This document shows positions 16,731 through 35,990 of a stretch of DNA of 35,990 nucleotides, in pieces. Location of the stretch: NCBI GenBank assembly GCA_017937405.1, contig JAGBDS010000004.1:1-35990 (forward strand). Direction: 5' to 3'. This DNA comes from Oscillibacter sp. (GTDB lineage Bacteria > Bacillota > Clostridia > Oscillospirales > Oscillospiraceae). Below the pieces are notes generated by a model, which made no database searches, was not told where the DNA came from, and saw only the letters and a program-made list of their open reading frames with translations. Within the stretch, counting starts at the first letter, position 1. Every line of letters starts with the position of its first letter. The translations under genes were made by a program, and so were the position numbers.

Positions 16731-16803
16731 TTACTGGATGATGGTCAGGACCAGGGTGACGGTACCTGCGATCCAGCAGTAATAGGCGAAGAAGCCGAAC
16801 TTG
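16731..16803 (-). pseudogene. uppP: Detached second copy of the uppP 3' end
   Basis: These bases repeat the last 24 codons of uppP: 16732-16803 match 16939-17010 at offset 207 with one difference (T16735 versus C16942). The copy keeps the reading frame and ends with TAA; its last codon reads CAG instead of CGG. It lacks any upstream coding part and abuts the ftsK ribosome binding site, as the original uppP end probably did. Confidence 0.85.
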
Positions 16804-16937
16804 TCTCCCCACAAAATCTTCGATTTTGCGGGGGCCCCTTGATTGGGACTCAAATGGTCAGGCAAAGCCCGACCATTTCAAGGTTTTGCGGTCTGCAAAA
16901 CCCTTGACGCCGCTTGCGCGTCTGGGCAAGTTTTCTG
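16804..16937. repeat. Hairpin-rich spacer between the two uppP 3' ends
   Basis: About 134 bases of non-coding sequence built of successive palindromes: CCCC-ACAAAATC/GATTTTGCGGGG, AAATGGTC/GACCATTT, CAAGGTTTTGC/GCAAAACCCTTG and GACGC/GCGTC. It has no resemblance to uppP or ftsK and looks like a small inserted element. Confidence 0.65.
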
Positions 16938-17771
16938 CTACCGGATGATGGTCAGGACCAGGGTGACGGTACCTGCGATCCAGCAGTAATAGGCGAAGAA
17001 GCCGAACTTGCCCTTGTCGGCGATCATTTTCAGCAGGCGGATGCAGGCGTAACCCACGAGAGCGGCCACCGCCACGCCCACCAGGTATGCGGGGACGTCG
17101 CCCCAGATGATGCCGGCCTCCGCTGCATCCTTCAGGCTGAGGATGTTAGCGCCCAGGATAGCGGGGATGGACAGCAGGAAGGAAAAGCGGACAGCGAACT
17201 TCCGCTCAAAGCCCACGAAGCACCCAGCGGTAATGGTGGTACCGGAGCGGGAGATGCCGGGGCAGGTAGCAATGGCCTGGCCCACGCCCACCAGCAGCGC
17301 ATCCAGCAGTGTGGCACTCTTCTCCGTCTTGCGGCCCTTCTTCACCCGGTCGCTGGCAAACAACAGGAAGCCTGTGACGATCAGGGCGCCCGCTACAAAG
17401 TACATATTGTTGCTAAGGCCCTCCACCAGGTCCTTCACAGGAAGGATAACAAACAGCGGCAGCGTGCCCACGATGATGAGCAGGATCAGCCGCCGGGCAG
17501 GGGGAACGGGGGTCGGCGTGGAGCGGTGGGCCAGGTCGCTGACGCCCCGGAAAAACTCCAGGACCATGTCCCGGATGTCGTCCCAGTAGGCGACGAACAC
17601 CGCCAGCAGGGTGCCCAGGTGCAGCAGCACATCGAAAAACTCCGGGATGTCAGAGGCGCCGGACATGCCCAGCAGGTGCTCCGCGATGGCCAGATGACCG
17701 GAGCTGGAAATGGGCAGGAACTCCGCCACGCCCTGAATAAGGCCCAGGAGGATGGATGACAACAGAGACAA
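16938..17771 (-). CDS. uppP: Undecaprenyl-diphosphatase UppP (BacA)
   Basis: A 277-residue multi-pass membrane enzyme that dephosphorylates undecaprenyl diphosphate to recycle the lipid carrier of wall synthesis; overproduction gives bacitracin resistance in other bacteria. The family motifs are present: GVAEFLPISSSGHL with its catalytic glutamate and PGISRSGTTI. The start is probably TTG at 17771 (MSLLSSILLGLIQG, matching the family N-terminus) with AAGGAG ten bases upstream; GTG at 17780 is an alternative but sits too close to that site. The last 24 codons recur downstream at 16731-16803. It is probably the first gene of a uppP-ftsK unit. Confidence 0.93.
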   Translation of the reverse strand: MSLLSSILLGLIQGVAEFLPISSSGHLAIAEHLLGMSGASDIPEFFDVLLHLGTLLAVFVAYWDDIRDMVLEFFRGVSDLAHRSTPTPVPPARRLILLIIVGTLPLFVILPVKDLVEGLSNNMYFVAGALIVTGFLLFASDRVKKGRKTEKSATLLDALLVGVGQAIATCPGISRSGTTITAGCFVGFERKFAVRFSFLLSIPAILGANILSLKDAAEAGIIWGDVPAYLVGVAVAALVGYACIRLLKMIADKGKFGFFAYYCWIAGTVTLVLTIIR

Positions 17772-17865
17772 TATGCTCACGCTCCTTATGGTTCAAATTT
17801 TCATACAAAAATAGTATAGCATGAATGCCCCAAAAATTCCAGTCATATTTATGTCAACGCAACAG

Positions 17866-34830: not shown

Positions 34831-34860
34831 AAAAAGGCTGCCGCTTTCGCGGCAGCCTTT
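34831..34860. terminator. Bidirectional terminator (copy A of the tuf terminator)
   Basis: AAAAGGCTGCCGC/GCGGCAGCCTTTT, loop TTTC. It serves the DUF4830 gene on the plus strand and is identical to the tuf terminator at 35026-35055. Confidence 0.85.
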
Positions 34861-34874
34861 TGGAAACCCTTCAA

Positions 34875-34922
34875 TTAGGCCTCGATGATGTCGGTAACGG
34901 CACGGTCGCCAACGGTACGGCC
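34875..34922 (-). pseudogene. tuf: Detached, diverged second copy of the tuf 3' end
   Basis: These bases encode [15 protein letters not shown] and stop, matching the end of the tuf gene ([15 protein letters not shown]) except for two residues. Together with the following terminator the repeat covers 34831-34922 versus 35026-35117 (offset 195), with 73 identical bases, then four differences in seven, then twelve identical. No upstream tuf sequence is present. Confidence 0.85.
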
Positions 34923-35025
34923 GTTTCCCACCCGGCTCAGCCGGGTGGGAGCCCTTTTTTCATTAAATGATACGGGCCTTCGGCCCGCCCCGCTTTGCGG
35001 GGCCCAGGGTGACCGTTTGCAAGCG
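34923..35025. repeat. Hairpin-rich spacer between the two tuf 3' ends
   Basis: About 103 bases with CCCACCCGGCT/AGCCGGGTGGG, GGGCC-TTC-GGCCC and GCCCCGC-TTT-GCGGGGC in succession. It is unrelated to tuf and similar in style to the spacer at 16804-16937. Confidence 0.65.
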
Positions 35026-35055
35026 AAAAAGGCTGCCGCTTTCGCGGCAGCCTTT
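35026..35055 (-). terminator. tuf terminator (copy B)
   Basis: The same perfect hairpin as 34831-34860 (AAAAGGCTGCCGC/GCGGCAGCCTTTT), starting 15 bases after the tuf stop codon and ending in Ts on the minus strand. Confidence 0.85.
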
Positions 35056-35069
35056 TGGAAACCCTTCAA

Positions 35070-35990
<921 letters not shown>

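Follow-up and report, generated by a model that had tools for sequence, protein, structure and literature searches.

The uppP gene of the Oscillibacter sp. DNA analysed here (35,990 nucleotides, hereafter the window) is followed by a second copy of its own 3' end, and the two copies enclose a small, strongly folded non-coding element that is found next to duplicated gene ends elsewhere in the genome, in the genus and in the family. The element has a defined order of parts and conserved hairpins; about half of its copies show complementarity to their target, sites occur both occupied and empty, and lineages are specific to single sites. Judged from comparison of sequences, it is somewhat probable that the element behaves in a homing-like way, recognising a single gene end through base pairing and either importing or creating a spare copy of that end. 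The features at uppP, where U denotes the functional copy of the gene end, D the displaced copy, T' the target, and H1 to H4 the hairpins, are as follows.

16938-17780, minus strand: the complete uppP gene, closed by the functional version of its 3' end (from the ORF list; named from its sequence and the preliminary description).
17005-17013, minus strand: target T' (GGGCAAGTT on the minus strand), with 6 nt lying within the duplication and 3 nt beyond it.
16939-17010, minus strand: U, the functional uppP 3' end, with 68 bp the same as in D and a different last codon and stop.
16924-16932, minus strand: guide-like arm, the exact reverse complement of T'.
16807-16925, minus strand: element core with four hairpins (109.8 bits against the covariance model; fold).
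16906-16922, minus strand: hairpin H1 (fold; placed by eye).
16879-16906, minus strand: hairpin H2 (fold and alignment consensus; placed by eye).
16852-16878, minus strand: hairpin H3 (fold and alignment consensus; placed by eye).
16807-16833, minus strand: hairpin H4 (fold and alignment consensus); the displaced gene end starts 3 nt past it.
16732-16803, minus strand: D, the native uppP 3' end, displaced; its downstream flank resembles that of empty sites.

The preliminary description of this locus had reported that the last 24 uppP codons recur with one base change and an intact in-frame stop. Both points were confirmed: 16732-16803 and 16939-17010 agree at 71 of 72 positions, 16736-16803 and 16943-17010 are identical over 68 bp, and the in-frame stop is TAA in the displaced end but TAG in the gene proper. 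The spacer, given there as 134 bases, measures 135 bp (16804-16938). As had been claimed, it repeats no gene sequence, with one exception, the 9-nt reverse complement at 16924-16932 of 17005-17013. Its description as a string of palindromes is borne out by the fold of the minus strand (-67.1 kcal/mol, z -6.96), which none of 200 shuffles equalled, and the ORF list holds no ORF of 60 aa confined to the 135 nt between the copies. The best relative of the window uppP shares 94% identity; the nearest named uppP relatives belong to Oscillibacter and Dysosmobacter, alongside unnamed Oscillospiraceae or Clostridia.

Across the 36-kb window, direct repeats spaced 60-450 bp apart exceed 17 nt in two cases only, the uppP end and a 73-nt tuf end. 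The tuf copy has the same geometry as the uppP copy and a divergent core, and the fold of its spacer reaches z -3.1, with 2 of 200 shuffles as good.

35070-35990, minus strand: tuf (EF-Tu), open at the contig end, the second target gene in the window (named from its own sequence).
35112-35122, minus strand: target T' in tuf (AGGGTGGCCGT on the minus strand).
35026-35117, minus strand: U copy of the tuf 3' end, with a terminator-like hairpin.
35006-35016, minus strand: guide-like arm of 11 nt, forming 10 Watson-Crick pairs and one G-U pair with T' (counted by eye).
34923-35025, minus strand: spacer with the divergent variant core (weak model match, 25.2 bits at 34927-35051).
34831-34922, minus strand: D copy of the tuf 3' end, with 4 mismatches to U in 92 bp.

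Used as a query against the window's own genome, the uppP spacer had 14 matches with E-values of at most 1. Inspection of their flanks revealed two copies of a gene end around most of them, at the 3' ends of lepA, murE, rsfS, glmS, a fusA-like gene, an Spx/ArsC-like gene and a trmL-like gene, and at the 5' end of uvrB (names come from a protein-family scan, some below the cut-off, except that uvrB and uppP were named from sequence); no gene-end duplication was seen at the matches L009 and L012. A covariance model built from 24 cores, with the core of L009 left out of the alignment, gave 16 matches here; within the genus, 47 of the 86 genomes have matches, at least 36 in the richest. These per-genome counts may be low, since up to 42 candidates were scored in each genome. 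In a family-wide draw, 39 of the 150 genomes had matches, as did 31 of the 106 genera, the own genus included. Nineteen of 20 scanned target proteins match a named family, mostly a housekeeping one, some of them below the curated cut-off as fragments. The places fetched for further study were the best-scoring part of the genus match list. From match lists of 122 and 60, 153 elements entered the flank analysis; this set excludes repeated retrievals of a single place, matches below ~37 bits, two partial matches (L135 at 1228, L187 at 829) and the weak window match at 34927-35051, which was taken up separately. Units of gene end plus element also form tandem arrays (L177, L172, L144, L258 and others), mostly at ~195-270 bp spacing and with four units in L258, and G013 has one element pair 137 bp apart. 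Draft contigs end at or near elements in L053, L098, L099, L108 and L246, so the element repeats probably break assemblies. Another dispersed repeat (L028, L032, L033, L042, L043) seems to share only an H4-like hairpin, followed by GAGGAGGAA-type sequence, its copies in L033 lying ~121 bp apart.

Along the folded strand there follow in turn the gene body, T', functional end (U), guide-like arm, H1 to H4, displaced native end (D) and native flank. With four of the 153 elements set aside for short flanks, a direct repeat scoring at least 40 flanks 138 of the remaining 149; 95% of mismatched pairs score up to 32, and their 99% point is as high as 92, probably because some of these pairs are the same gene in two species. 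The 11 elements with no flanking duplication above the threshold are at L009, L012, L015, L107, L127, L137, L165, L167, L169 and L174 (two in L174). Removal of duplicates reduced the 138 to 134, and the requirement that D lie within 8 nt of the core reduced these to 124. On the folded strand, D starts 0-5 nt past the core in 108 of the 124, and U ends before H1. The duplicated stretch is usually ~40-110 bp long and in some cases, such as the tuf and c69 sites, holds a terminator-like hairpin; in the c69 target group (L035, L121, L122, L147, L151, L154) this hairpin is followed by a T run, and an Rfam match is absent. Of the 124 elements, 83 match one of 14 gene-end motifs and could be assigned to as many gene families; in these, the body of the gene lies on the U side. 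The assigned sites are mostly at the 3' end of a gene, where the folded strand is the sense strand. At the uvrB gene start the element is antisense to the gene, and further gene-start sites were read by eye in loci of other genera. The repeat was seen at 25 of 32 elements from other genera (33 of 34 matches used, one dropped for a short flank).

The core model comprises 119 positions in several hairpins, and the element as a whole spans ~115-145 nt. RNAalifold predicts 32 pairs from the core alignment, in 19 of which at least one sequence has changed on both sides yet still pairs. In a separate count, pairing is kept in 96.7% of cells compared with 84.2% in shuffles, and 85 cells have changed on both sides, compared with 23 in shuffles. 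The alignment holds 45 G-U cells against 4 A-C cells, indicating that the modelled strand is the folded one, i.e., the sense strand of genes targeted at the 3' end. Rfam gave two matches in 14 loci, a T-box and an M-box, both away from the element, and none in 6 further loci. The spacer is a conserved structured element with many homologues, in agreement with the earlier view that the arrangement is not a plain tandem duplication.

Among the observations that go beyond the preliminary description are a target-complementary arm, site-specific lineages, sites at gene starts, and the variant copy at the tuf end. The bases between U and H1 often hold the reverse complement of the gene sequence across the start of the duplication, the exact match being 9 nt long in uppP and 13 nt in mutS of L097. 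An uninterrupted match of at least 9 nt is found in 53 of 124 elements, compared with ~1% of 976 shifted controls, and 39 of these 53 matches end 5-8 nt inside the duplication. When at least 10 matching positions in a 12-nt window are required, 64 of 124 own pairs qualify against 6 of 620 swaps between gene families; swaps within a gene family qualify in 201 of 612 cases. The arm stays below 10 of 12 in 60 of the 124 elements, a few of which are clipped by tandem arrays. For loci of other genera, the same level is reached by 16 of 25 own pairs and by 31 of 600 cross pairs, some of the latter being the same gene. In mutS, the targets CTGGACGCCCTC, CTGGACGCCCTG and CTGGACGCCATC each face their own complement, so that some synonymous target changes have a counterpart in the arm. 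This correspondence points either to regeneration of the arm at insertion or to selection for pairing.

In a test grouped by target gene that covered 30 groups and 32 genomes, 93 of 124 elements have their nearest core at the corresponding site of a different genome (~5 expected), and 3 have it at another site of their own genome (~6 expected). Recent transposition within a genome is unsupported, given these site lineages. Core distance correlates weakly with host distance (rho 0.17, n=213). Among 29 uppP loci of Oscillospiraceae type, 4 are filled, 1 is truncated where its contig stops, 1 resembles a remnant and 23 lack the insertion; the last include L045, L046, L048, L049, L051, L062 and others with a single uppP end, the kind of relative that the preliminary description had expected. 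L064 holds the probable remnant of an old uppP insertion. At glmS, the motif indicates a single end in 25 of 30 loci, at least two of which are cut by contig ends (L246, L251), and G075, counted as single-end, carries the end once more on a different contig. For mutS, 21 of 31 loci were scored as single-ended, a number that falls to 18 on reading, G086, G012 and G023 carrying a truncated or degenerate second copy; the mutS locus of G041 is an empty site, next to the filled site of G018. These empty sites, together with the dispersed copies of the spacer beside duplicated gene ends at the levels of genome, genus and family, which had likewise been anticipated, support the original proposal of a small non-coding element that entered near the end of uppP with the gene end supplied or duplicated.

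The tails of U are common across species, namely IIR-stop for uppP in the window and L047 and KLS-stop for mutS in G004, G018, G042 and G086, unlike the native tails kept in D, which suggests that the element brings part of the gene end. For uppP and mutS, it appears to supply the last codon(s) and the stop of the functional copy as well. Signs of decay in D are a Y to D change in L060 and a truncated D after the element in mutS of G086 (L300).

The mean difference between U and D is 0.068 within a genome; comparisons of U-U, D-D and U-D between genomes all give ~0.20 (247 pairs). The duplication is therefore younger than the species split or has been homogenised, and the gene end has not simply been carried along an old lineage. 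Across 83 coding pairs and 1,855 codons, we counted 255 synonymous differences, 91 others and 6 at stop codons, and in sense-strand pairs of at least 15 codons third positions hold 222 of 306 U-D differences. Polarised on relatives, the derived changes comprise 132 synonymous and 15 nonsynonymous in U, and 99 and 50 in D, with 39 ambiguous; the higher nonsynonymous share indicates that D is relaxed. Neutral decay of D from an identical duplication does not match the synonymous bias, nonsynonymous sites being about threefold more numerous. Rapid turnover would account for this bias, as would a gene end acquired from a close relative. Core distance correlates to the same degree with U-U and with D-D distances (rho 0.34 each), and in an import test over 63 nt the host-distance correlation is weak even in empty-site controls (median rho 0.17; mean of a second test 0.05). 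At glmS of the window's genome, the closest sequence to U is that of G074/G075 (7 differences), whereas D comes closest to G007 (6), a split that hints at import of U. No mosaic tracts were seen in U in 28 pairs, where mismatch rises slightly towards the 3' end.

PF01797 (Y1_Tnp) and PF00078 (RVT_1) each match in 36 of 86 genomes. At an E-value of 0.001, a level at which drafts and very divergent enzymes leave room, RVT_1 has no match in the carriers G041, G018, G024 and G099, and Y1_Tnp none in G041, G008, G099 and G091, genomes that are at least 91% complete and hold 18-33 copies of the element. No element lies near any of the seven Y1 loci scanned, those with weak matches (L286-L292, as opposed to the stronger L198-L217), and no RAYT gene flanked by copies was found there. 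Insertion by a reverse transcriptase was rejected because of the carriers with no detectable RT, and mobilisation by a Y1 or RAYT enzyme because of the carriers with no detectable Y1 and the weak Y1 loci with no element nearby.

The preliminary description knew of no such element, and we found no described equivalent in the open-access literature, most subscription papers lying outside its coverage. Group I and II introns share site-specific lineages in conserved genes and guide pairing at the insertion point. The present element differs in the lack of an Rfam intron match, in its far smaller size and in its antisense orientation at a gene start. As for IS200/IS605 insertion, we know of no target duplication. 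Similarities to IS200/IS605 would lie in the hairpin ends acting as single strands and the choice of target by guide pairing; in IS608, according to the accessible text, a 4-nt guide beside the hairpin pairs with the target, and longer pairing has been engineered (PMC5934647). Here a longer arm next to H1 pairs at the duplication start in about half of the copies. IS608 carries tnpA and has a native guide of 4 nt (PMC5934647), whereas several carriers here have no detected Y1 transposase, and the window elements, with 103-135 nt between copies, contain no Y1 (HUH) transposase. Among small bacterial repeats, the subject of an available review (PMC2229807), REPs are described as 20-40 bp palindromes with a GTAG or CGTC tag (PMC3733652). 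In common with REP/RAYT systems, the element consists of short, dispersed, non-coding hairpins with G-T stem pairs, presumably mobilised in trans (PMC3733652). It differs from REPs in its four hairpins, gene-end duplication and site-specific arms, the accessible REP text never using the word 'duplication' (PMC3733652); no 20-40 bp palindrome with either tag, sought by eye, was found in the 119-position core. A closer parallel in outcome is offered by the mobile ORF elements of fungal mitochondria, in atp6 of Allomyces and in atp6, atp9, cox2 and nad3 of Glomus, where, in the text available, insertion near the 3' end brings a new C-terminal part and leaves the native end downstream, at conserved targets and with differences between close relatives (PMC3630166). 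Replacement of the gene end with a displaced native end is what we see at uppP and mutS. The fungal elements encode a homing endonuclease, are inserts of several hundred to ~1000 bp and reside in mitochondria (PMC3630166); ours, in contrast, has a non-coding hairpin core of ~115 nt with a target-complementary arm, resides in bacterial chromosomes and leaves no room for a homing endonuclease ORF in the 135 nt between the uppP copies.

Recombination alone could account for part of these data. Each site would then have acquired the element a single time in the distant past, possibly through fold-back template switching, and the element would no longer move by itself. Homologous recombination would swap filled and empty alleles among species, and recombination between the direct repeats would remove the insertion. 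The site-specific lineages with no sign of recent spread within genomes, the patchy occupancy and the lack of RVT_1 or Y1_Tnp matches in the tested carriers all fit, as do the tandem arrays, whose spacing of roughly 140-270 bp is compatible with unequal exchange. However, some 30 target groups of identical geometry in one genus set call for a mechanism that can act repeatedly, 70-bp direct repeats enclosing 135 bp are expected to be lost quickly unless the insertion re-enters, and the U-D differences show no tracts in 28 pairs. We hold this account to be unlikely, while giving it real weight.

That the element is a 3' structural or termination signal under selection, with the duplication as a by-product of its gain, is improbable. 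Its strong structure and the predominance of gene 3' ends, with the folded strand sense there, speak for a signal, but uvrB and other gene starts (the latter by eye) carry it in antisense, occupancy varies among close relatives, the duplicated ends of tuf and c69 already hold a terminator-like hairpin, and the complement of the target is left unexplained. Still less credible is an intron-like RNA, in which T' would be joined to D in the transcript and the middle spliced out, so that both gene ends are used. Such use would match the mainly third-position (222 of 306) and synonymous (255 versus 91) U-D differences, and the arm pairs across the duplication start as an aligning guide would; against it stand the antisense insertion at the start of uvrB, the decay of D in L060 and G086, the lack of an Rfam intron match and a core that is, to our knowledge, much smaller than known self-splicing introns. 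An assembly artefact at repeats, suggested by the draft state of the window's genome (112 contigs) and by contigs that end at elements, can be practically dismissed, since single-contig genomes (G100, G178) and many unrelated assemblies share the arrangement with diverged copies.

We thus return to the homing-like element as the probable reading, and infer mobility, a putative enzyme and an origin of the spare gene end along the following lines. The arm would pair with T' on single-stranded DNA and direct entry to one defined place, as IS200/IS605 guides do, with the putative enzyme supplied in trans. The same event would bring a gene end from a close relative or duplicate the host's own, so that the gene that is hit stays functional; D would be a decaying relic, and spread between species would occur mainly at the same site. 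In a more ambitious form, which we put forward tentatively and hold to be rather less than an even prospect, this would be a self-programmed homing element with a 9-16-nt guide for its own essential-gene site, a protective gene end and a putative trans-acting enzyme, a natural long-guide counterpart of engineered IS608.

Even with another mechanism, a structured element of this geometry occurs across the family, with no described counterpart in the open-access literature. If the homing-like reading is true, the element would be a source of error in the annotation of gene ends and in drafts that break at its repeats, and might offer a base for programmable insertion. It would constitute a bacterial parallel to the gene-end-carrying homing elements of mitochondria, and the housekeeping genes of a major gut bacterial family would harbour up to dozens of guide-bearing, harmless insertion sites.
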